Shown here piece after piece: positions 1 through 15,755 of a stretch of DNA of 15,845 bases. Positions within the stretch are counted from its first letter, which is position 1, and each line of letters starts with the position of its first letter. A model generated the notes under the pieces. That model saw only the letters and a program-made list of their open reading frames with translations, made no database searches and was not told the origin of the DNA. The stretch is from Actinomycetes bacterium (GTDB taxonomy: Bacteria > Actinomycetota > Acidimicrobiia > Acidimicrobiales > RAAP-2): assembly GCA_021800645.1 (NCBI GenBank), contig JAJYYT010000009.1, forward strand, positions 1 to 15,845. Reading direction: 5' to 3'. A program made the position numbers and the translations under genes.

Positions 1-889
1 CCACGTCCTGAAAGCCGGGGAACTTGTTGGGGAGCGCGCGCATGTCCCCGCCACCCTGCACGTTGTTCTGGCCGCGCAGCGGCACCAGCCCCGAACCGAA
101 GCGACCGACGTGACCCGTGAGGAGGGCGAGGTTGCACAGCGCCAGGACGTTGTCGGTGGCGGTGTGGTGCTCGGTGATCCCGAGCGTCCAGCAGAGCTGG
201 GCCCGGCCCGCCCGTGCGTAGTCGTGGGCCAGACCGGCAATGACGTCGGCGGGCACCTTGGTCAGCCGCTCGCCCTCAGCCAAGGTGAACGGTTCCACCG
301 AGGCGGCGTACTCCTCGAAGCCGGTGGTCGCCCGGCGCACGAACTCGGTGTTGACCAGCCCAGAGCGGATGATCTCGCGCCCGACCGCGTTGGCGAGCGC
401 GATGTCGGAGCCGACGTCGATACCGAGCCACACGTCGGCCCACTGGGCAGACGTCGACCGGCGCGGGTCGACGGCGTACATCCTGGCCCCCCGGCGCAAC
501 CCCCTCAGCAGGTGGTGGAAGAAGATGGGGTGGGCCTCACGGGCGTTCGAGCCCCACAGCACGACGAGGTCGGTCTCCTCGACCTCCCGATAGGAGCTGG
601 TGCCGCCCCCGGCACCGAAGACTGCCGCCAGACCGGCGACGCTCGGTGCGTGTCAGGTGCGGTTGCAGGAGTCGATGTTGTTCGACGCCATCACCGCGCG
701 GGTGAACTTCTGGGCGAGGAAGTTCACCTCGTTGGACGACTTCGAGCAGCTGAACATGCCGAAGGCCGGCCCGCGGTGGGGTTCGAAGCCAGCCGCGGCC
801 CGGTCGAGGGCCTCGTCCCAGCTGGCGGCCCGGAGCGAACCACCCTCTCGGACGAGCGGTTGCGTGAGACGGTCGTAGTGGCGAGCCAT
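1..889 (-). CDS. fdhF: Selenocysteine-containing formate dehydrogenase alpha subunit (5' part; 3' end outside window)
   Basis: Molybdopterin-bis-MGD formate dehydrogenase catalytic subunit, oxidising formate to CO2. Seen: 296 codons, open except for one TGA at 655-653 (residue 79), in the context NNIDSCNRT-U-HAPSVAGL. This matches the Sec140-His141 site of E. coli FdhF (CCARV-U-HGPSVAGL). The catalytic Arg is present in LRGQNNVQGGGDM (Arg272, nt 76-74). The Sec-to-Arg distance is 193 residues, the same as Sec140 to Arg333 in E. coli as I recall it. The start is set by AGGAGG at 903-898, 8 nt before ATG 889; a second ATG at 895 is too close to it. From this start the usual N-terminal Fe4S4 domain (about 60 residues) is absent, and no Cys cluster is visible in the frame further upstream, which runs into the divergent GNAT gene. 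Sec use needs selABC elsewhere in the genome. Ordinary annotation would probably split or truncate the gene at 653. I am confident of the family and fairly confident of Sec. Confidence 0.9.
612..649 (-). promoter_or_regulatory. Bacterial SECIS hairpin following the Sec UGA codon
   Basis: Starting 3 nt after the UGA (655-653), the transcript can fold into a two-part hairpin. The lower stem is GCACCGA (649-643) with TCGGTGC (618-612), 7 bp. The upper stem is GTCGCC (640-635) with GGCGGC (629-624), 6 bp including one U-G pair. The apical loop is GGTCT (634-630). The loop sequence and its offset of 18 nt from the UGA match the E. coli fdhF SECIS, which SelB binds. Part of the loop match follows from the conserved VAGL codons, but the complementary lower stem does not. 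Confidence 0.75.
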
Positions 890-897
890 TCCCATGA

Positions 898-903
898 CCT
901 CCT
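898..903 (-). promoter_or_regulatory. Ribosome binding site deciding the fdhF start
   Basis: AGGAGG reads on the minus strand at 903-898 within GAGGAGGT. It lies 8 nt from ATG 889 and only 2 nt from ATG 895. The optimal spacing selects 889 (MARHYDRL), so the N-terminally short form appears to be a genuine translation start and not an artefact of a missed upstream exon or frameshift. Confidence 0.6.
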
Positions 904-2020: not shown

Positions 2021-3883
2021 ATGCGACGCTCGAACTCTCAGCGATCGACAGGCGTGAGCGGAAGTGAGCGCCCGTGGCTTCGGACGCTTCGGCGCGCCGC
2101 GAAGGCGGTCGGGCTCGCGGTCGTTGCGGTGGTGCTCGTTGGTGCCGTCGCCTTCTACTTGGCGATCGGCCTCCAGAACGCGAACCCGCCCGTCATGGCC
2201 GTGCAAGGGAACGCCATGCGCCCCGCGCTCACCGAGGGCGACCTGGTCGTGCTTCAGGGCGTTCAGCCGGCGGCGCTGCGCAAGGGCGACGTGATCGCAA
2301 TCGCGGTGCCCGCGACCGTCCGGGAGCGTACACATCTCCCACCCGACATCGAGCGCAGGATCGTCGGCATCCTCCACTCGCCCCACGGCGTCAGGTTCAG
2401 GACCCAGGCGGACGCAAGCCCGAGACCGGATCGCTTCTCGGTGCCTCCCTCCGAGATCCTCGGAGAGGTCAGCGGTTCGATCCCATCTCTCGGCTACCTC
2501 TTTCTCTTCCTCGGAAGCATTCCTGGCGATGCATTCCTCGCGATCGGGGCGCTTGCAGTCGTTAGCTATGTCCTCGGGCGATGGACGGTGCGGCGCCGAG
2601 CCCACCTGCCCAGTCTGGAGGCGAGCACGGATCGGCGCGCAGCCGTGGGACGGGCCGGTGCCGCGCTGACCGTGCTGGCGGGATCGCCGCCTGGAATCGA
2701 CGGGACTGGGGTCGCATCCGATCCGCCAGCGGCGACACAGAAGGACGGCACCGCACCACAGGACGAGCACGGCACCGCACCACAGGACGAGCACGGCACC
2801 GCACCACAGGACGAGCACGGCACCGCACCACAGGACGAGCACGACACGGCCGAGGTGCTCGAAGAGCTCTTGGCGGAGATGCGCGCGACGAGCGGCCAGA
2901 GCCGAGCCTCTGCGACCGTGCTGCGCGAGCTCATCGGCGCGGTGAACGAGTACGGCGCCCACTTGCGCTCGCACACCGCCGTCATGCGCAACTTGGCCGC
3001 GACCACCGATCAGCTCCACCAAGCGGTGACTCTCCTGACTGGGGCGGTGACGAGCACGGCGTCCATGCGCCGGGTGGAGACAGAGCGACCGCGCGACACC
3101 ACTGAGCAAGCCACAGCACCTGCTCCTCCAAGGGCTGGGCACAAGGTGGGCGTCCACGACGTGACCCGGCCGGCGATCGACGCGGAAGCCTGGCGCGAGC
3201 CCTTCACCGGTTCGGAGCTTCGATGGCCGAATTTGGAGCGGATCGCCGACACCTATCCGGCTCAGCAAGTCGACCGGCTGCTGGACCGCGCGGCTGACGC
3301 CCTCGAGCTCGCGGAGCGGGAGCGCAACAGCCTTCGCGACCGCCTGCTCGTGGTGGAGACGCGGCTTGCGATGCTCACGGAGCAGCAGGACACCATCGTC
3401 GAGGCGAGGGTCGCGCAGCGGGAAGCCGATCGGGCAGCCGCACGCAGCCGCCACGACGCGCTGATCGCTCTGCAGGACGCCACCCGCCGTGCCACTGAGA
3501 TCGCTCGCGACGTCGATGAGGAGCGCAGGAGCCTGCTCGGCATCGCAAGAGAGCTAGGAGGGCACTTGTTCGTCGGGGGGCCGCTGGGATCCGGTGGTTC
3601 CACAGGCAGCACGCCCGAAGCTGAGCAACTGGCTCAGGGCAGGCCCGGATCATCGATCAGGCCCGGATCGTCGATCAGACCCGGATCATCGATCACACCC
3701 GGATCGTCGATCAGACCCGGATCATCGAGCAGACCCGGATCATCGAGCGGGCCTCCGCCATCGAGCGAAGCTCCGCCTTCAAGTGGGCCTGGACCATCGA
3801 TAGGCCCCGGCGTGCCAGGCGCCGATCGTGAGCCCCCGGACATCCCGCCCGTGTGGGAAGTCACACCTCCTCCGGCGAGTTGA
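2021..3883 (+). CDS. S26 signal-peptidase-like membrane protein, catalytic Ser replaced by Ala, with coiled-coil and repeat tail
   Basis: 620 residues. TM1 is about 29-51, an S26 (SipW/ER-type) domain about 56-150, and TM2 about 156-187 followed by RWTVRRRAH. The large C-terminal part (188-620) is therefore predicted cytoplasmic. The family motif G-N/G-S-M-x-P appears as QGNAMRPAL, with GCC (Ala65, nt 2213-2215) where the nucleophilic Ser belongs. The usual His of the HR segment is replaced in ERRIVGI (Arg112 region). The Asp-containing segment TQADASPRPD and the SVPPSEILGEV segment are kept. So the fold looks intact and the active site lost. The tail holds four perfect DEHGTAPQ repeats, a heptad-like helical region (about 280-350), a second long coiled coil (about 410-505) and a Ser/Pro/Gly repeat end (RPGSSI units). 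The ATG start lacks a clear Shine-Dalgarno; GTG 2054 is an alternative. The last 250 bp overlap the opposing transporter gene. Function unknown: possibly a scaffold or decoy peptidase. Confidence 0.75.
   Translation: MRRSNSQRSTGVSGSERPWLRTLRRAAKAVGLAVVAVVLVGAVAFYLAIGLQNANPPVMAVQGNAMRPALTEGDLVVLQGVQPAALRKGDVIAIAVPATVRERTHLPPDIERRIVGILHSPHGVRFRTQADASPRPDRFSVPPSEILGEVSGSIPSLGYLFLFLGSIPGDAFLAIGALAVVSYVLGRWTVRRRAHLPSLEASTDRRAAVGRAGAALTVLAGSPPGIDGTGVASDPPAATQKDGTAPQDEHGTAPQDEHGTAPQDEHGTAPQDEHDTAEVLEELLAEMRATSGQSRASATVLRELIGAVNEYGAHLRSHTAVMRNLAATTDQLHQAVTLLTGAVTSTASMRRVETERPRDTTEQATAPAPPRAGHKVGVHDVTRPAIDAEAWREPFTGSELRWPNLERIADTYPAQQVDRLLDRAADALELAERERNSLRDRLLVVETRLAMLTEQQDTIVEARVAQREADRAAARSRHDALIALQDATRRATEIARDVDEERRSLLGIARELGGHLFVGGPLGSGGSTGSTPEAEQLAQGRPGSSIRPGSSIRPGSSITPGSSIRPGSSSRPGSSSGPPPSSEAPPSSGPGPSIGPGVPGADREPPDIPPVWEVTPPPAS
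2747..2842 (+). repeat. 24-bp tandem repeat, 4 perfect copies, in the S26-like gene
   Basis: Four identical copies of a 24-bp unit (GGCACCGCACCA followed by CAGGACGAGCAC) run head to tail and encode GTAPQDEH four times. They form an acidic/polar linker just before the first predicted coiled coil. The perfect identity indicates recent slippage or unequal exchange. The length is a multiple of 3, so the frame is preserved. Confidence 0.95.
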
Positions 3884-6481: not shown

Positions 6482-7935
6482 GCGGCCAGACCCGCCGTGC
6501 CAGCGAGACCCGCCGTGCCAGCGAGACCCGCCGTGCCAGCGAGACCCGCCGTGCCAGCGAGACCCGCCGTGCCAGCCAGACCCGCCGGGTGCGCCGGCAG
6601 CTCGATCCGGGCGGCGGCTCCGCCACCGACCCGATTGCCTACGCGTGCGCTCCCTCCGTGGGCCGTCGCGATCGCCTCGACGATAGCGAGGCCCAGCCCC
6701 GCGCCGCCTTCCGCCCGGGTCCGGTCGCCGGTCGGGCGGCTGAACCGCTCCAACGCGTGCGGCAGGTACTCGTCGGGGAACCCCGGACCGCGGTCGAGCA
6801 CGTCGACCGTCAGCATCGCCGTGTCGGCCGAGGCACGCAGCTCGATCTCGGTGCCCCTTGGCGCGAAGCGGAGGGCGTTGTCGAGGAGGTTGTCCACCGC
6901 CTGGCGCAGCCGTTGCGGGTCGGCCTCGGCCCAGAGGACGTCGGGAGAAGAAACTGCAAGTCGGACACCGGCTACGTGGGCCCGGTGTCGGTTGACGCGT
7001 GCCACTTGACGGAGCATCGCCGCGACGTCGAGACGTTCGGGTCTGACGACGACGCCCGCGGTGTCGCTGCGGGCGAGGAGGAGAAGGTCCTCTACGAGCA
7101 TGGTGAGCCTCGTCACCTCCTCGGCGGCGCTGGCGACCGCTTCGGCGAGCTGCTCCTTGGTGCGGCCGGGCTTCCCGGCGAGCTCCAGCTCCCCACGCAC
7201 GACGGCGAGGGGAGAGCGCAGCTCGTGGCTCGCGTCCGCGACGAAGGTCCGCTGGCGCTCGAGCGATCCGTGCAGTCTCTCGAGAAGAGAGTTCATCGTC
7301 CGGGCAAGCGTCGCCAGCTCGTCACGCGTGGTGGGGACGTTGATTCCCGCCGCCTCGCCGGTCGCCGACAACGCCTGCACCTGCCGCCGCATGCGCTCGA
7401 CCGGTGCGAGCGCCCAGCGGGCGAGAAGGTAGGCGCCGGCCACCCCGACCACCAGCACGGCCGCTCCACCGAGCGCCACCCCGAGCTCGATCGTCCCGAC
7501 GCTCTTGTCGTAGGACTCGAGCGAGACGGCCGCGACGGCGACCGATCCCCGATGCCCGGCGTAGGGCTCGGCGACGACCCTCGTGGGCTCCCCGTCGACG
7601 ACCCTGGTCAGGGCCACTCGTCCCGAGGACGCCGTCCGCAGCGTGGTTGCGCTCACGAGCGGCGCGCTGCCCGCGTCGGGGCCCGCTGCGACGAGCCGTC
7701 CGGACTCCCCCCAGACCTGCAGGAGGTATTGACCGGGGAGCTGGACGTCCGGCGCGCTGCGGTCTTCGCCCGCGGTGACGTAGCGGCCGGCGATCCCCGC
7801 TGCCGTGGCGAGCTGCGCGTCGATCGAGCGAAGCATCGACGACGAAAGGGCGGCGACGAACAGCCAGCCGCCGAAGGCGACGAGCACCGCCGCAACCGCG
7901 CCAAAGGCGAGGGCGAGGCGGATCCGGATCGGCAC
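6475..7935 (-). CDS. Sensor histidine kinase (two TM, HAMP, HisKA, HATPase)
   Basis: Membrane sensor kinase of 486 residues. Domains: TM1 (about 7-30), extracytoplasmic sensor loop (about 31-148), TM2 (about 150-172), HAMP (about 173-225), HisKA with phospho-acceptor His237 in FVADASHELRSPLAVV, and HATPase_c with N box QAVDNLLDNALRFAP, G1 DRGPGFPDEYL and G2 GGAGLGLAIVEAIA. The C-terminus is an AGLAGT tandem-repeat tail not seen in typical kinases. The start is GTG 7935, one nucleotide after the response regulator stop. A longer in-frame ATG at 8016 would overlap the regulator by 80 bp and adds a polar segment, so I reject it. It presumably phosphorylates the adjacent OmpR-type regulator. The small loop gives no clue to the signal; the divergent redox operon hints at redox or metal stress. 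Confidence 0.93.
   Translation of the reverse strand: MPIRIRLALAFGAVAAVLVAFGGWLFVAALSSSMLRSIDAQLATAAGIAGRYVTAGEDRSAPDVQLPGQYLLQVWGESGRLVAAGPDAGSAPLVSATTLRTASSGRVALTRVVDGEPTRVVAEPYAGHRGSVAVAAVSLESYDKSVGTIELGVALGGAAVLVVGVAGAYLLARWALAPVERMRRQVQALSATGEAAGINVPTTRDELATLARTMNSLLERLHGSLERQRTFVADASHELRSPLAVVRGELELAGKPGRTKEQLAEAVASAAEEVTRLTMLVEDLLLLARSDTAGVVVRPERLDVAAMLRQVARVNRHRAHVAGVRLAVSSPDVLWAEADPQRLRQAVDNLLDNALRFAPRGTEIELRASADTAMLTVDVLDRGPGFPDEYLPHALERFSRPTGDRTRAEGGAGLGLAIVEAIATAHGGSARVGNRVGGGAAARIELPAHPAGLAGTAGLAGTAGLAGTAGLAGTAGLAGTAGLAAG
6481..6588 (-). repeat. 18-bp tandem repeat, about 6 copies, at the 3' end of the histidine kinase gene
   Basis: The plus-strand unit GCCAGCGAGACCCGCCGT occurs in four perfect copies (6499-6570) with degenerate copies at both ends. 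On the coding strand it gives AGLAGT repeats, forming a small-residue tail after the ATPase domain. The unit is a multiple of 3, keeping the frame. Confidence 0.93.
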
Positions 7936-8853: not shown

Positions 8854-9345
8854 ATGGGGCTCGACCAGCAGCCGCAAAGGACCCGCTTGCCGAGAGGCGA
8901 CGGCGCCCCGGAACCTCCGCCGGACATGGGCGGGGTGGGTCGGAACGGGCGAGACGTTGCGGCCCGGCGACGTGAACGGGGGCTGCGAGGCGTGCGGCAC
9001 CTCTCGAATTGGACGCTCGCCGCGCTGCTCGTCGGAGTGGGTGCGGCGAGCGCCGCGATCGCCAGGGCGACGCAGCCCGCGGCGGCGCCGGCCGCCTTCT
9101 CGGCGGGGACGGCGGTCAGCGGTGAAGGAGACGGCGCGATCGCTGCCACCGGCACGGGCACGGGAACGGGGGCGGGCGCGGGCGGCGGCATCAGCCGAAG
9201 CGGCGCACCGAGCGCCGGCTCACCCGTCGCACTGACCACCCCCTCGGGAGTCGTGATCGCGGGGTCCTCGGCAGGCGGGACGACGACCAGGCCGACTGGA
9301 ACACCGGCCACGGGGCGCAGCGTCACATACCAGAGCGACACATGA
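8854..9345 (+). CDS. Small single-pass membrane protein heading the redox operon; possible flavinylation motif
   Basis: 163 residues. The N-terminus is Arg/Pro-rich and predicted cytoplasmic, ending in RRRERGLRGVRHL. One TM helix follows (about 51-72, SNWTLAALLVGVGAASAAIA). The exported region (about 73-163) is Ala/Gly/Thr-rich with low-complexity TG/AG repeats and no recognisable fold. Residues 93-99 are DGAIAAT, which keeps the D, A and T that I recall as fixed in the ApbE flavinylation consensus (Dgx[s/t]gAT). This is suggestive only, because the usual FMN-binding domain is missing. The start at 8854 is chosen because GAGGAGGAG (8843-8851) precedes it; an upstream ATG at 8812 has no ribosome binding site. 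The stop overlaps apbE by 4 bp (ATGA). Small proteins of this kind next to apbE and ferric-reductase-like genes are, from memory, common in actinobacteria; function unknown. Confidence 0.75.
   Translation: MGLDQQPQRTRLPRGDGAPEPPPDMGGVGRNGRDVAARRRERGLRGVRHLSNWTLAALLVGVGAASAAIARATQPAAAPAAFSAGTAVSGEGDGAIAATGTGTGTGAGAGGGISRSGAPSAGSPVALTTPSGVVIAGSSAGGTTTRPTGTPATGRSVTYQSDT
9151..9186 (+). repeat. 6-bp low-complexity repeat encoding TG/AG
   Basis: About six degenerate copies of GGCACG encode alternating Gly with Thr or Ala in the exported part of the small membrane protein. It lies directly after the DGAIAAT motif and would form a flexible linker. Confidence 0.7.
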
Positions 9346-10418
9346 CCTCGCAGCTCCGAGGTGACCGGCTCCGCCCCGCGGAGATCGCCTCTGCGACGTG
9401 GCGCGTGTCCTTCGTGCCTGCGACCACGGCGCCGCCGTCGACGGCGCGTGTCGCCGTGTGCGAGCGCGCCGCGCTCGGTACGAGTGCTCGGCTCGCCATC
9501 TGGCCGGCAGGCGCCCAGGACGCGGCATGCGCGGCGGTCGATCGCATCCTCGACGAGCTGGACCGTCAGGTGAGCCGGTTCAGGGCGGACTCCGAGCTCG
9601 AGCGCGCCCACGCTGCCCAAGGCCTCCCCTCGCTACTCTCCCAAGGTGCCGCCGACGCCGTGACGGTCGCGTTGGCGGCTGCCTGTGTGAGCGGCGGGCG
9701 GGTCGACCCGACCGTCGGCGCGGCGCTCTGCGATCTCGGTTACGACCGGGACTTCTCCGCGATCGACCCGAGGCGGCCACCTCGGGACCCAAGGCCGGCA
9801 CCCGGATGGCGATCGGTTCGGCTCCACGGCCGCGTCCTTCGGACCGCCCCTGGAGTCCGGCTCGATCTCGGTGCGACGGCGAAGGGCCTCGGTGCGGACC
9901 GCGCGGCCTTGGCGGCGCTCGGAGCGCTCGATGGACGCGGCGGGGTGCTGGTGAGCCTCGGCGGAGACATCGCGGTGGCCGGACCTCCTCTGGGGTCGGG
10001 ATGGCCCGTCGGGGTCAGCGAGGACCCCGGTGCCGACCTCGACGCCGCAGCGCAGGTCGTGCAGATTCGCCGAGGCGGCCTCGCGACGTCGTCGGTGCTC
10101 CACCGGCGCTGGCGGAGCGGAGGCACCGCCTCGCACCACATCGTCGACCCTACGACCGGACAACCGGTGAGCGGTCCCTGGAGGACGGCGACCGTCGCCG
10201 CGCTGAGCTGCGTCGAAGCGAACACGGCCAGCACGACGGCAATCGTCGCCGGGGACGACGCAGAGGACTGGCTCCGGTCGCACGACCTGGCCGCGCGGCT
10301 CGTGGGCCGTGACGGGCACGTCCAGCTCGTCGGCCGGTGGCCACACGCCATGGGCGGCCAGGTGCCGATCCCGCTCCGATCGATCTTCGAACGCCGCGAC
10401 GAGGCGGCACGGCAATGA
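9342..10418 (+). CDS. apbE: ApbE family FAD:protein FMN transferase
   Basis: 358 residues. ApbE transfers FMN from FAD to a Thr or Ser of a target flavoprotein, needing Mg2+. Visible family motifs are DLGATAKGLGADRAA (starting at residue 175), VLVSLGGDIAVAG, and SHHIVDPTTGQPV (264-276, carrying the conserved His and DP-x-TG). The C-terminal metal-site segment reads EANTASTTAIVAG, with Asn294 where the classical enzymes have Asp; I believe this variant is common in the actinobacterial branch. No signal peptide or lipobox is seen, so it appears cytoplasmic, unlike the periplasmic lipoprotein ApbEs. The start overlaps the preceding gene by 4 bp, and the stop overlaps the next gene by 4 bp (ATGA), which indicates tight translational coupling. 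No obvious FMN_bind (PF04205-type) substrate is encoded in the window. Confidence 0.93.
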   Translation: MTSQLRGDRLRPAEIASATWRVSFVPATTAPPSTARVAVCERAALGTSARLAIWPAGAQDAACAAVDRILDELDRQVSRFRADSELERAHAAQGLPSLLSQGAADAVTVALAAACVSGGRVDPTVGAALCDLGYDRDFSAIDPRRPPRDPRPAPGWRSVRLHGRVLRTAPGVRLDLGATAKGLGADRAALAALGALDGRGGVLVSLGGDIAVAGPPLGSGWPVGVSEDPGADLDAAAQVVQIRRGGLATSSVLHRRWRSGGTASHHIVDPTTGQPVSGPWRTATVAALSCVEANTASTTAIVAGDDAEDWLRSHDLAARLVGRDGHVQLVGRWPHAMGGQVPIPLRSIFERRDEAARQ

Positions 10419-11035
10419 TGGTCGTCGTCTCGGCCGGCGGCTCGCAGCTCTTGTGGTTCGTCTCACGGGCAGCCGGACTGGTCCTGCTCGTGACGCTGAG
10501 CGTCGTCGTGGCGATGGGAGTGGCCACGCGGCTCGGATCGGCGTTGCCGGGCTTGCCCCGCTTCGTGACGGCGGAGCTCCACCGGACGCTCTCGCTGTTC
10601 GCGATCGCCCTCCTGGCACTCCACGTGGCGACGGCCCTTCTCGATCCCTACGTGTCGATCGGCTGGCTGTCCGCCGTGGTGCCGTTCGCCTCCCACTACC
10701 GCGCCGAGGCGATCGGGTTGGGAGCCCTGTCGGTCGACCTCGTCGGCGCCGTGGTCGCGACGAGCGTCCTCCGCCGCCGGCTGGGCTACGGAGCGTGGCG
10801 CGCCATCCACTGGCTCGCGTACCTGTCATGGCCCGTAGCCCTCGTGCACGCGTACCAGTCGGGTCCTGACACCCACCTGTGGTGGGCGGCCGCGCTCGAG
10901 TGGGGATCGGTGGGCATCGCCGCCACCGCGATCGTCGCACGGCTTCTCCAGGTGCTGCGACGCGGTGAGGGCGCGCTGGCCCCGCGTGGCGTCGCGCGTC
11001 TAGGCGGGGAACCGTTGGAAGAGGACACGACATGA
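10415..11035 (+). CDS. Ferric-reductase-like transmembrane cytochrome b
   Basis: 206 residues and about six hydrophobic segments, matching the ferric reductase-like transmembrane domain (NOX/FRE/MsrQ superfamily core). Four His sit in two helices: His56 and His70 (H-x13-H in ELHRTLSLFAIALLALH) and His132 and His145 (H-x12-H in AIHWLAYLSWPVALVH). This fits two stacked b-haems linking the two membrane faces. There is no FAD/NAD(P)H-binding C-terminal domain, so electrons must come from a separate protein; the next two genes are good candidates. Start ATG 10415 overlaps the apbE stop by 4 bp; a second ATG follows immediately at 10418. The stop overlaps the NuoF-like gene by 4 bp (ATGA). Confidence 0.9.
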   Translation: MMVVVSAGGSQLLWFVSRAAGLVLLVTLSVVVAMGVATRLGSALPGLPRFVTAELHRTLSLFAIALLALHVATALLDPYVSIGWLSAVVPFASHYRAEAIGLGALSVDLVGAVVATSVLRRRLGYGAWRAIHWLAYLSWPVALVHAYQSGPDTHLWWAAALEWGSVGIAATAIVARLLQVLRRGEGALAPRGVARLGGEPLEEDTT

Positions 11036-12378
11036 GCACCCGGGACTTCACGGCCGCCCCCGTCCACCACGGACCGGCGGGGCTGGGACCGGCGGGGCTG
11101 GGACCGGCGGGGCTGGGACCGGCGGGGCCCCGAGACGGGCGGCTACCGCGGATCCTTTGGCCCGACGGCACGCCTCCCGACCCCTCGCTGGCCACGCATC
11201 TCCGGCGGCACGGACCTCCCCCGTCCCTCTCGCGCAATCACGAGCTCGAACAGCTCTGGGACGAGGTCCTCCGTGCGGGCGTCCTGGGACGCGGGGGCGC
11301 GGGCTTCCCGCTCTTCTCCAAGCTCAGATCCGTGCCGCGGGCCGGCCGCTCACCGGTCGTCATCGCCAACGGCACCGAAGGGGAGCCCGCCAGCGACAAA
11401 GACAAGGTCCTCCTCCTCCAGTCTCCGCATCTCGTCCTCGACGGGATCGACGTGGCGGCCGCGCTCGTGGGCGCGGCGCGTGCCTTCCTCGTCGCTCCTG
11501 ACGAGGTCCTCCTCTCGCTCGGCCGCGCGCTGGACGAGCGGCACCGTGCAAGCAGCGTCCCGGTCCACCTGGTCCCCGCGGCGCGCGGCTTCGTCGCCGG
11601 CGAAGCCAGCGCTGTCGTGAGCTGGATCGAGCGCGGATCGGCCCTCCCCCGGATGACCCCGCCTCGCCTCGCCCACTCTGGGCTGAGCAAGCGGCCGACC
11701 CTGGTGCACAACGTGGAGACCCTCGCGCACCTGGCCCTCGTCGCCCGCCACGGCGCCGACTGGTACCGGCAGGCAGGCACGCCCGAAGAGCCCGGGTCCA
11801 TGTTGGCGACCCTGTCAGGGGCGTGCACGCACCCCGGGGTCCGCGAGGTCGAGATCGGCAGACCGCTCGTCGAACTTCTCGAGATCGGCGGCACCGATCC
11901 CGATCGCCTGGGTGCGGTGCTCGTCGGGGGGTACTCCGCCGCCTGGGTGCGGGCCCGGGACGTCGCGTCCCTCGCCCTCTCACGGGCGAGCCTTCGGGGT
12001 GTCGGCGCATCTCTCGGCGCGGGCATCGTCGCTGCGCTGCCCCGTGAACGCTGCGGGCTCGTCGAGAGCTCTCGCGTCGTTGACTACCTGGCGGGCGAGT
12101 CAGCCGGACAGTGCGGACCCTGCATCTTCGGGCTCGCCGCCGTCGCAGCCGAGCTCGGCGCTCTCGCACTCCGAGGCCAGGGTGACCCCGGACTCCTTCG
12201 CCGTTGGACCAACCAGCTCGACGGGCGCGGCGCCTGCGCGCACCCCGACGGGGTTGCGCGTTTCGTCCGCAGCACCCTCGAGGTCTTCGGCGCAGAGGTC
12301 GAGAGCCACCTCGCGGGCTGGTGCACGGGCACGTCCGACGTGCCCGTGCTGCCCGTTCCCGGACCCCGAGGACGATGA
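11032..12378 (+). CDS. NuoF-like flavoprotein (NADH dehydrogenase 51-kDa family), stand-alone
   Basis: 448 residues, homologous to the FMN/NADH/[4Fe-4S] subunit of complex I. The FMN/NADH site is seen in LGRGGAGFPLFSKL (85-98) and NGTEGEPASDKDKVLL (113-128). The C-terminal Fe-S segment is ESAGQCGPCIFGL with Cys361 and Cys364, plus Cys402 in GRGACAHPDG. The first Cys of the standard ESCGxCxxC motif is Ala358, so only three of the four N3-cluster ligands are present; I recall the same in related actinobacterial proteins. There are no NuoE or NuoG genes nearby. It is placed in a tight operon after the membrane cytochrome and 3 nt before a ferredoxin, which suggests electron transfer between NAD(P)H, ferredoxin and the membrane haems. 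The N-terminus bears a GLGPA tandem repeat (residues 14-33) outside the conserved domain. Confidence 0.9.
   Translation: MSTRDFTAAPVHHGPAGLGPAGLGPAGLGPAGPRDGRLPRILWPDGTPPDPSLATHLRRHGPPPSLSRNHELEQLWDEVLRAGVLGRGGAGFPLFSKLRSVPRAGRSPVVIANGTEGEPASDKDKVLLLQSPHLVLDGIDVAAALVGAARAFLVAPDEVLLSLGRALDERHRASSVPVHLVPAARGFVAGEASAVVSWIERGSALPRMTPPRLAHSGLSKRPTLVHNVETLAHLALVARHGADWYRQAGTPEEPGSMLATLSGACTHPGVREVEIGRPLVELLEIGGTDPDRLGAVLVGGYSAAWVRARDVASLALSRASLRGVGASLGAGIVAALPRERCGLVESSRVVDYLAGESAGQCGPCIFGLAAVAAELGALALRGQGDPGLLRRWTNQLDGRGACAHPDGVARFVRSTLEVFGAEVESHLAGWCTGTSDVPVLPVPGPRGR
11071..11130 (+). repeat. 15-bp tandem repeat, 4 copies, near the 5' end of the nuoF-like gene
   Basis: GGACCGGCGGGGCTG occurs three times perfectly, and a fourth copy differs only in its last three bases. 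It encodes GPAGL four times at the N-terminus of the NuoF-like protein. Homologous NuoF proteins do not need this segment, so it is a lineage-specific insertion. Confidence 0.95.
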
Positions 12379-13887: not shown

Positions 13888-14001
13888 TCATCGCCGACTT
13901 TCCAGCTCCACCGCGCCATCTTCCCTCGCCCCGAGCCGGGCCGCGGTGCAGGCCGTCATCGTGGCGGAGATGTCGAAGCAGGCGAGCCGGACGTCGCTCA
14001 T
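13888..14001 (-). CDS. Possible 37-residue small ORF between pheA and serA
   Basis: ATG 14001 overlaps the pheA stop in the classic ATGA arrangement. The frame (MSDVRLACFDISATMTACTA, then a polar end) closes at 13888, before the preferred serA start at 13862. No ribosome binding site or known family is seen. It may be a chance frame, or serA may begin at 13919 inside it. Its only support is the position and overlap. Confidence 0.2.
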   Translation of the reverse strand: MSDVRLACFDISATMTACTAARLGAREDGAVELESRR

Positions 14002-14969
14002 GGCCGCCGGTCGGCGGCCGCCGCGCCGATGACCTGCGCTCGGAGCCCGGACAACCACTCGTCCGCCTTCTTCCACGCGGCCTCTGCCTGCTCACGCCGC
14101 TCCGGCGCGTGTCGCCCCCCTGCCGGGTACGACCCCAGAAACTTCACGTCCGCCAGGCTGGCACGCAGATCGCGCAGACAGTCGGCGACGACCTCGTCCG
14201 CGACGTGCCCGGCGAGGTCGATGGCGAAGCAGTACTCGCCGAGACCCTGCTTGGTCGGGCGGGACTCGAGACGGGTGAGGTTGATGCTCCGTGCGGCGAA
14301 TTGCCCGAGGATGCCGTGGAGGTTCCCCGGGCGGTCCGCATCCTGGAAGCAGACGATCGTCGTGCGGTCGTGTCCGGTCGGCGCGGGGATGCCTGCGCTG
14401 CCGACCCCGACAAACCGGGTCTGGTTCCCTTCGAAGTCCTCCACGTCCTCAGCGAGGACCGTGAGGCCGTAGAGGTCGGCGGCGAGCCGCGGCGCGACTG
14501 CCGCGGCATGCGGGTCGGGGTGGCTCCCGAGCTGTCGTGCCGCGTCGGCGGTGGAGTTCGCCGCGACGGTCTCGACGTAAGGAAGCCGCTCGGCGAAGAA
14601 CCGCCGGCACTGCGCAAGGGCGACCGGGTAGGACACGACCCGGCGCACGTCGTGGAGGGCCGTCCCGTGCGGCGCCATGAGGTGGAGCCGGACGTCGAGC
14701 ACCACTTCGCGTTGGATCAGGAGGTCGACGTCGAAGATCAGCGCGTCGAGCGTGTCACGCACCACGCCGTCGATCGCGTTCTCGATGGGCACGAAGCCGA
14801 CGTCGACGCCCCCCGAGCGCACGGCCTCGAGCACGTCGCCGATCGTGTCCATGGGCTCGAGCGCGGCCGAGGCGTAGTCCTCTTGGGTGAGGAGCGCCTC
14901 CTCGGTGAAGGTGCCGAGCGGCCCGAGGAAGGCGACGGAGCACGGCGGGCGGGTCGCAGGGCGGGGCAT
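13998..14969 (-). CDS. pheA: Prephenate dehydratase with ACT domain
   Basis: Converts prephenate to phenylpyruvate in phenylalanine synthesis. 323 residues, a monofunctional PheA. The catalytic domain (about 10-190) shows VAFLGPLGTFTEEAL at the N-terminus, VPIENAIDGVVRDTLD, and the TRF catalytic motif in NQTRFVGVG (Thr184-Arg185-Phe186). The ACT domain follows, with PGNLHGILGQFAARSINLTR and the ESRP phenylalanine-binding signature, so feedback inhibition by Phe is expected. A C-terminal helix of about 35 residues closes the protein. The ATG 14969 start agrees with the family N-terminus; the frame is open much further upstream but has no homology there. It is divergent from larB with only 24 bp between the starts. 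Confidence 0.95.
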   Translation of the reverse strand: MPRPATRPPCSVAFLGPLGTFTEEALLTQEDYASAALEPMDTIGDVLEAVRSGGVDVGFVPIENAIDGVVRDTLDALIFDVDLLIQREVVLDVRLHLMAPHGTALHDVRRVVSYPVALAQCRRFFAERLPYVETVAANSTADAARQLGSHPDPHAAAVAPRLAADLYGLTVLAEDVEDFEGNQTRFVGVGSAGIPAPTGHDRTTIVCFQDADRPGNLHGILGQFAARSINLTRLESRPTKQGLGEYCFAIDLAGHVADEVVADCLRDLRASLADVKFLGSYPAGGRHAPERREQAEAAWKKADEWLSGLRAQVIGAAAADRRP

Positions 14970-14993
14970 CGCAGGGCAGGATAGTGAGCCACC

Positions 14994-15755
14994 ATGGATC
15001 AGTCGTTCATCCACCAGTTGCTCGTCGACGTCTCGAAGGGGGACTGCGACCCGGACGAGGCGGCACGTCGGCTGCGGCACCTGCCGTTCGCCGACCTGGG
15101 GTTCGCGCGCGTGGACCACCACCGAGCCCTGCGCCAGGGCTTCGCCGAGGCGGTGTACGGACCCGGCAAGTCCCCTGAGCAGTGTGCGTCCATCGTCGTG
15201 GAGCTCCTCGACGCGTCCGGTGGGCCGGTGCTCCTGACCCGTGCCGATCCGGCACAGGTCTTCGCGGCACGCCAAGCCGCGATCGAGGCAGGTCACGGCG
15301 AAGCCAATGTCACCCCCACGGGCAGCCTCTCGATTGTCGCGTGGCGCGCCGCGCCCAGGCGCCCAGGCCGCATCCTCGTCCTCACCGCCGGGACGGCGGA
15401 CCTGCCCGTCGCCGACGAGTGCCGTGCGGTGCTGCACGCGCTGGGTTTCTCTCCCGCATTGCTCGCCGACTGCGGCGTCGCAGGGGTGCACCGGCTGCTC
15501 GCGTCGGTAGAAGAGCTCCAGGACGCGGACGTGGTCGTCGTCGTTGCCGGGATGGAAGGGGCACTTGCGAGCCTCGTCGGCGGGATCACCGCGGCTCCGG
15601 TGGTCGCAGTGCCGACGAGCGTCGGCTACGGCGCCTCCCTCGAAGGAGTGACGGCGCTCCTGGCCATGCTTGCGTCGTGCGCCTCGGGGATCACGGTCGT
15701 CGGGATCGACAACGGCTACGGCGCCGCCTGCGCGGCTGCACGTTTCCTCCGGTGA
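14994..15755 (+). CDS. larB: LarB, nickel-pincer nucleotide cofactor synthase (AIR carboxylase-like)
   Basis: LarB carboxylates and hydrolyses nicotinic acid adenine dinucleotide to pyridinium-3,5-biscarboxylate mononucleotide, the first step toward the nickel-pincer cofactor of lactate racemase (LarA) and relatives. 253 residues, the usual length. Family blocks seen: FARVDHHRALRQGFAEAVYG, VLTAGTADLPVADE, the PurE-like VVVVAGMEGALASLVGG, APVVAVPTSVGYGAS and SCASGITVVGIDNGYGA. The last contains Cys229, at the conserved LarB cysteine. Start ATG 14994 has only a weak ribosome binding site (GTGAG). A GTG at 15752 overlaps its stop by 4 bp and opens a frame that leaves the window, where larC would be expected. 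Confidence 0.93.
   Translation: MDQSFIHQLLVDVSKGDCDPDEAARRLRHLPFADLGFARVDHHRALRQGFAEAVYGPGKSPEQCASIVVELLDASGGPVLLTRADPAQVFAARQAAIEAGHGEANVTPTGSLSIVAWRAAPRRPGRILVLTAGTADLPVADECRAVLHALGFSPALLADCGVAGVHRLLASVEELQDADVVVVVAGMEGALASLVGGITAAPVVAVPTSVGYGASLEGVTALLAMLASCASGITVVGIDNGYGAACAAARFLR

Follow-up and report, generated by a model that had tools for sequence, protein, structure and literature searches.

A predicted selenocysteine-containing formate dehydrogenase gene from little-cultured actinobacteria and the split alpha subunit of its relatives

Introduction

The formate dehydrogenase (FDH) FdhF of Escherichia coli, or FDH-H, relies on a catalytic set of Sec, His, and Arg residues in which Sec140 and Arg333 are 193 residues apart, and the SECIS element of its gene displays a GGUCU loop. 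The [4Fe-4S] domain of this enzyme is carried by the same chain.

According to passages of PMC5029168, no bacterial selenoproteins are more widespread than the FDH alpha subunit and SelD. Excerpts of PMC7176365 describe three Sec-FDHs in Actinomycetospora chiangmaiensis, together with a selenite-dependent removal of formate and the detection by proteomics of the proteins FdhA3 (640 aa), FdhB3 (614 aa), and FdhC3 (316 aa). In the same excerpts, FdhA3B3C3 (FDH3, DSM 45062) is called a cytoplasmic NAD+-dependent FDH. From what these two sources state, Sec-FDHs are thus already known in Actinobacteria. A passage of PMC13397495 presents FdsA as one chain with a Cys ligand.

Here, we describe an FDH gene located at one end of a stretch of 15,845 nucleotides, hereafter the window, in which the original prediction had recognized an actinobacterial Sec-FDH resembling E. 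coli FdhF. We examined its in-frame UGA codon, the hairpin that follows it, and the corresponding genes and genomes of its relatives.

Results

The UGA codon of the window gene

The 5' part of fdhA, encoding the catalytic molybdopterin subunit of an FDH, occupies positions 1-889 of the minus strand, where it is cut by the window edge. Its ATG (889-887) is preceded at 8 nt by a Shine-Dalgarno-like AGGAGG read from the sequence (898-903, minus strand), and a second ATG (895-893) stands merely 2 nt from this motif. A profile search with the encoded part returned TIGR01591 with 329 bits (E 3.9e-98), and a domain search also matched PF00384. The TGA codon at 655-653, residue 79 counted from the ATG at 889, is flanked on both sides by FdhA-like sequence, and the frame stays open from there to the window edge. 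As originally proposed, this codon aligns at the Sec/Cys position of FDHs of solved structure and adjoins the conserved His. The predicted spacing of 193 residues to the catalytic Arg of the RGQNN motif (codon 76-74, minus strand) was likewise retrieved, the residues being U97-H98 and R290 in P0001, a distance identical to that of the E. coli enzyme. A gene caller ending the frame at the UGA would yield a fragment of 78 residues.

Scanning a single genome per species, we confirmed at least 585 relatives and retained the best 80 loci, which contain 81 gene copies. At this conserved redox position, the codon is TGA in 76 of the 81 copies and TGT or TGC in the five others (L037, L051, L070, L072, and the second copy of L055), a ratio that describes the close relatives among the best 80 of at least 585 loci and not the whole family. 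The original view that selenoproteins are uncommon in such genomes has to be amended accordingly, Sec being the rule among these close copies. The eight closest of the best 80 loci (L001-L008, 81-91% protein identity) all have TGA; they come from metagenome-assembled genomes (MAGs) that carry the label Actinomycetes in seven cases and Acidimicrobiaceae in one, and L001 is the closest among the matches listed, with 91% identity to the window gene. MAGs labelled Chloroflexi, Acidobacteria, and Rokubacteria, among others, are also found in the best 80.

When the Sec/Cys residue was masked for tree building, the window gene was placed with L004, L003, L001, and L002 (100/91). Another branch (100/95) separates the five Cys copies from all others and, as drawn, falls within the Sec copies. 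Since the tree is midpoint-rooted, the direction of the Sec/Cys change is itself inferred; the single clade of Cys copies would fit a single replacement of Sec by Cys following a duplication. The kinship of the window is also visible in its serA gene, for which matches of 79-87% identity were found in 7 of the 15 genomes searched (G001, G002, and G004-G008), and in its serA/prephenate dehydratase region, which matches L120-L122 (in G005-G007) with about 80% DNA identity. This agreement with the fdhA kinship supports the use of these relatives' genomes for the examination of the selenium machinery. The serA search covered 15, and a genome search for FdhA 16, of the 26 genomes used there. One MAG holds two close fdhA copies with one TGA each (G005:C13 and G005:C137), pointing to either a duplicate or a mixed bin, and serA was likewise found twice in it.

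A conserved hairpin after the UGA

The minus strand can form at 640-624 an upper stem of 6 bp (640-635 with 629-624) closed by a GGUCU apical loop (634-630) situated 18 nt after the UGA. This part of the predicted hairpin is conserved. At the loop codon, 75 of 77 TGA genes (the window included, best 80 of at least 585 relatives) have GGT versus none of the five Cys genes. The TGA copies of L045 and L071, two Rokubacteria MAGs, have GGG instead, possibly a loop variant. Over 76 distinct TGA genes, 99.1% of the upper-stem cells are paired versus 63% in the five Cys genes, and sliding the partner strand by 1-3 bases as a control lowered the pairing to 14.7-81.8% in the 76 TGA genes. In the same genes, pair 20-28 occurs as C-G (45), U-G (22), or U-A (9), so that the double change from C-G to U-A alters nine genes on both sides. 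With both stems considered, 88.7% of pairs are formed versus a mean of 86.3% when the 3' letters are shuffled among genes, and none of 1000 shuffles reached the observed value; the excess is slight, as few columns vary.

Among 225 fourfold degenerate columns in 77 TGA genes, the five third positions of the upper hairpin rank 1-5 by lowest entropy, with 0 to 0.17 bits compared with 0.78 for the next column and a median of 1.48 elsewhere. Judged by these values, the putative SECIS is the strongest synonymous constraint within the gene. The same sites are frozen in the TGA genes and not in the five Cys genes. The arrangement expected of a bacterial selenoprotein gene, an upper stem and a GGUCU loop behind the UGA, is kept in the TGA genes and not in the five Cys genes.

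The 7-bp lower stem that completed the originally predicted hairpin (649-643 with 618-612, full hairpin 649-612, minus strand) was rejected as a conserved part of the SECIS, for pair 12-39 is standard in only 16 of 76 genes, pair 9-42 in 51 of 76, and pair 13-38 in 53 of 76. The other four pairs involve positions that vary little or not at all, and they carry little information. Single-sequence folding, the check that had been suggested, does reproduce the hairpin; its energy, with z-scores of -0.8 to -2.0 for four stretches of the window, 0.1 for L001, and -0.5 for the TGA copy of L055, is weak and not significant and was set aside as evidence. It is therefore conservation across genes, and not folding energy, that indicates more than a chance hairpin. 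A scan of the window against Rfam at the gathering threshold returned no match.

Selenium machinery in the genomes of relatives

We searched 26 genomes, drawn from 26 of the 80 loci, for the genes of Sec synthesis and insertion and retained the counts over cut-off. Looser tallies at E 0.001 were discarded since at that level tRNA-Sec, SelB, and SelD match all 14 control genomes; over cut-off, the controls give tRNA-Sec in 5 of 14, SelB in 2 of 14, and SelD in 2 of 14, and SelA matches fall from 4 of 14 at E 0.001 to 1 of 14. Among the relatives, tRNA-Sec exceeds the Rfam cut-off in 23 of 26 genomes (below in G002, G020, and G022), SelA in 20 (below in G005, G011, G014, G015, G020, and G022), and SelD in 23 (below in G010, G012, and G020). 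SelB exceeds its cut-off of 242 bits in 15 of 26, and six of the eight nearest genomes (G002-G007) score between 214 and 239 bits. ARAGORN read the anticodon TCA in all 20 tRNA-Sec regions, from 18 genomes (twice in G009 and G010). Two contigs, G003:C149 and G004:C70, present selA, a selB-like gene, selD, and tRNA-Sec in a row, with SelB matches of 218 and 234 bits, respectively.

The genome of Sphaerisporangium perillae (G020, L051), which carries a Cys copy, is the only one of the 26 with none of tRNA-Sec, SelA, SelD, and SelB over cut-off. Some genomes with a TGA copy lack part of this set. In G022 (L060), neither tRNA-Sec nor SelA passes the cut-off and ARAGORN found no tRNA-Sec in the 20-kb stretch around selB; in G002 (L002), selB, selD, and selA are together on one contig, while no tRNA-Sec passes the cut-off and ARAGORN found none on the stretch with these genes; G011 and G015 possess tRNA-Sec and no clear SelA or SelB. 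These four genomes are MAGs, as are most of those with missing sel genes, and may be incomplete. Three other genomes (G019, G024, and G025) have tRNA-Sec and SelA over cut-off yet a Cys copy of fdhA, and another selenoprotein is expected there. The best SelD match itself contains one in-frame TGA in G001, G013, G014, G016, G017, and G023 and is probably a selenoprotein too. By analogy with its relatives, the organism of the window would possess the sel genes.

An alpha subunit distributed over two proteins in the relatives

The comparison with E. coli FdhF as a single-chain enzyme did not hold. The domain search detected no Fe4S domain in the window frame before the catalytic domain. FdhA of the relatives starts just before RLTEPLVR, and the open frame before the Sec codon spans only 80-86 residues in L012, L017, L038, L054, L059, and L060, which leaves no room for a further N-terminal domain. 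The two FdhA proteins scanned (L004 and L012) contain PF00384 and PF01568 only, and the Fe4S domain PF04879, which precedes these two domains in other FDHs, is located at the C-terminus of the four FdhC proteins scanned, as at residues 249-302 of 303 in L012, where FdhC ends CSYCGVGC...GHLCIKGRFGWQFVQNR. TIGR01591 reflects the same division: the full-length FdhA of L004 scores 619 bits over positions 52-672, so that neither this protein nor the window part reaches the curated cut-off of 666 bits by FdhA alone, and positions 1-50 are matched by FdhC of L012 and L055.

In the relatives, fdhA is directly followed by fdhB, which encodes a NuoE-NuoF-like fusion, and the downstream proteins scanned carry NuoE/NuoF and Fer2/Fer4/Molybdop_Fe4S4 domains. 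The downstream region could be evaluated for 56 of the 81 copies, those whose locus includes the end of fdhA and 3.3 kb or more beyond it, the other 25 being dropped. At the distances tested, fdhB was found in 53 of 56 copies (the exceptions being the first, TGA, copy of L055, L061, and L076), fdhC through its Fe4S end in 53 of 56 (the exceptions being L060, L061, and L076), and both in 52 of 56, L055 counting twice as its tandem fdhA copies precede one fdhB-fdhC set. In L031, fdhA ends early. Open-frame sizes are about 620-650 aa for FdhA, depending on starts read by eye, 600-680 aa or so for FdhB, and 303-392 aa for FdhC.

The division falls at a domain border. Residues 6-300 of FdhC from L012 match residues 25-303 of FdsA (6tg9_A), residues 4-623 of FdhA from L004 match residues 307-932, and FdhB of L003 matches FdsB. 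On sequence grounds, the alpha subunit of an FdsABG-type enzyme is split in the relatives, with the gene order catalytic, NuoEF, Fe-S. In the organism of the window, fdhB and fdhC would be expected beyond the left edge of the window.

In Actinoallomurus iriomotensis (L055, about 10001-17625), a TGA and a TGC copy of fdhA stand in tandem before one fdhB-fdhC-fdhD set. Such a tandem could permit a selenium-dependent swap of the catalytic subunit.

Other features of the window

A NuoF-like gene at 11032-12378 was considered as the partner FdhB and rejected: its product has 448 aa, it is about 10 kb away, and it stands beside an ApbE and a ferric-reductase-like gene, while FdhB of the relatives is a NuoE+NuoF-like fusion encoded directly after fdhA. 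The consecutive genes at 9342-12378, for an ApbE-like FMN transferase, a ferric-reductase-like membrane protein, and this NuoF-like protein, probably form a separate electron-transfer cluster. Further on (13998-15755), a prephenate dehydratase gene on the minus strand adjoins a divergent gene with an AIR-carboxylase domain on the plus strand. Tandem repeats with units of 24, 18, 18, and 15 bp are present at 2745-2847, 3640-3746, 6488-6587, and 11071-11128, inside or close to the ends of four different genes, and encode repeated peptides such as GTAPQDEH and LAGTAG.

Discussion

We consider it very probable that the UGA at 655-653 is read as Sec by means of the GGUCU hairpin and that the product is the catalytic subunit of a molybdenum FDH that is cytoplasmic, probably NAD+-dependent, and provided with separate FdhC and FdhB. 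The relatives, the synonymous-site constraint, and the sel machinery in the relatives' genomes all speak for the proposed reading of the UGA, and Sec incorporation itself, like the metal and the electron acceptor, is deduced. In the mechanism that we envisage, SelB with Sec-tRNA-Sec would bind the hairpin at 640-624 and insert Sec at the UGA. This residue, judging from its conservation and from known FDH biochemistry, would be a ligand of the active-site metal, where formate would be oxidised. Electrons would then pass to the [4Fe-4S] domain and the other Fe-S clusters on the separate FdhC and, as the domains of the relatives' FdhB and FdhC suggest, to the NuoE-NuoF-like FdhB, which would reduce NAD+.

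A sequencing error in a genuine Cys codon, or a nonsense mutation in a pseudogene, would also explain a TGA at this place, and the five copies with a Cys codon lend it some credit. This explanation is nevertheless very improbable, as the eight closest loci and 76 of 81 copies (best 80 of at least 585 loci) share the TGA, as the synonymous sites of the hairpin are frozen in TGA genes and not in the five Cys genes, and as the Cys copies cluster in a single clade apart from the window; conservation refutes it in substance. Even less credible is a reading of UGA as Trp or Cys through a change of the code, or an unspecific readthrough, in favour of which nothing was found: under table 11, the remaining window genes that match a family have open frames, tRNA-Sec with the anticodon TCA, SelA, and SelD are present among the relatives, and the constraint on the SECIS would be meaningless under a general code change.

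The nature of the enzyme leaves slightly more room for an alternative, although a small one. The comparison originally made with FdhF implied a stand-alone enzyme of the formate hydrogenlyase or HDCR type; HDCR FdhF (7qv7_S) is indeed the best match by sequence among solved structures, and no fdhB or fdhC is visible in the window, whose edge cuts fdhA. We regard this as unlikely, given that FdhA itself is devoid of an Fe4S domain and that fdhB and fdhC both lie downstream in 52 of 56 testable relative copies. A multisubunit enzyme with a Sec-containing FdhA remains our preferred reading.

With the window gene, a well-supported selenoprotein gene is added for actinobacteria that have seldom been cultured and are represented here by MAGs. 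Furthermore, the split set and the tandem of Actinoallomurus provide a natural setting in which Sec and Cys versions can be compared next to the same partners. Within the open-access literature searched, no description of the fdhA/fdhC split was found, and the available passages of PMC8808070 and PMC13397495 do not describe it. It is conceivable, though we lean slightly against it, that these genes represent a widespread and mostly unremarked Sec-FDH lineage whose catalytic chain is a different protein from the one that bears its nearest [4Fe-4S] domain, the catalytic subunit being an exchangeable module.

Compared with known systems, the window gene is a further case of the Sec-FDHs, and the less familiar part is the Fe-S piece carried by a separate protein in the relatives. 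As in E. coli fdhF, a GGUCU loop lies 18 nt beyond the UGA; unlike in the E. coli SECIS, the 7-bp lower stem is not kept among the relatives, and unlike E. coli FdhF, the window FdhA is without the N-terminal [4Fe-4S] domain. FDH3 of A. chiangmaiensis, in the excerpts of PMC7176365, also contains Sec and has subunit sizes similar to those of the relatives of the window gene. It belongs to another lineage, and the likeness is one of subunit sizes, the sequence comparison being with A. chibensis of the same genus only (L079, one of the 80 loci), whose gene shares 73% identity with the window fdhA over the best segment. The NAD+-dependent FdsABG(D) of Rhodobacter capsulatus (PDB 6tg9/6tga) provides a close parallel in composition, with FdsA and FdsB matching FdhC plus FdhA and FdhB of the relatives, respectively. 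In contrast to FdsA, the alpha subunit of the relatives is cut in two at the domain border, the genes for its halves flank fdhB in inverted order, and Sec replaces Cys as the ligand.
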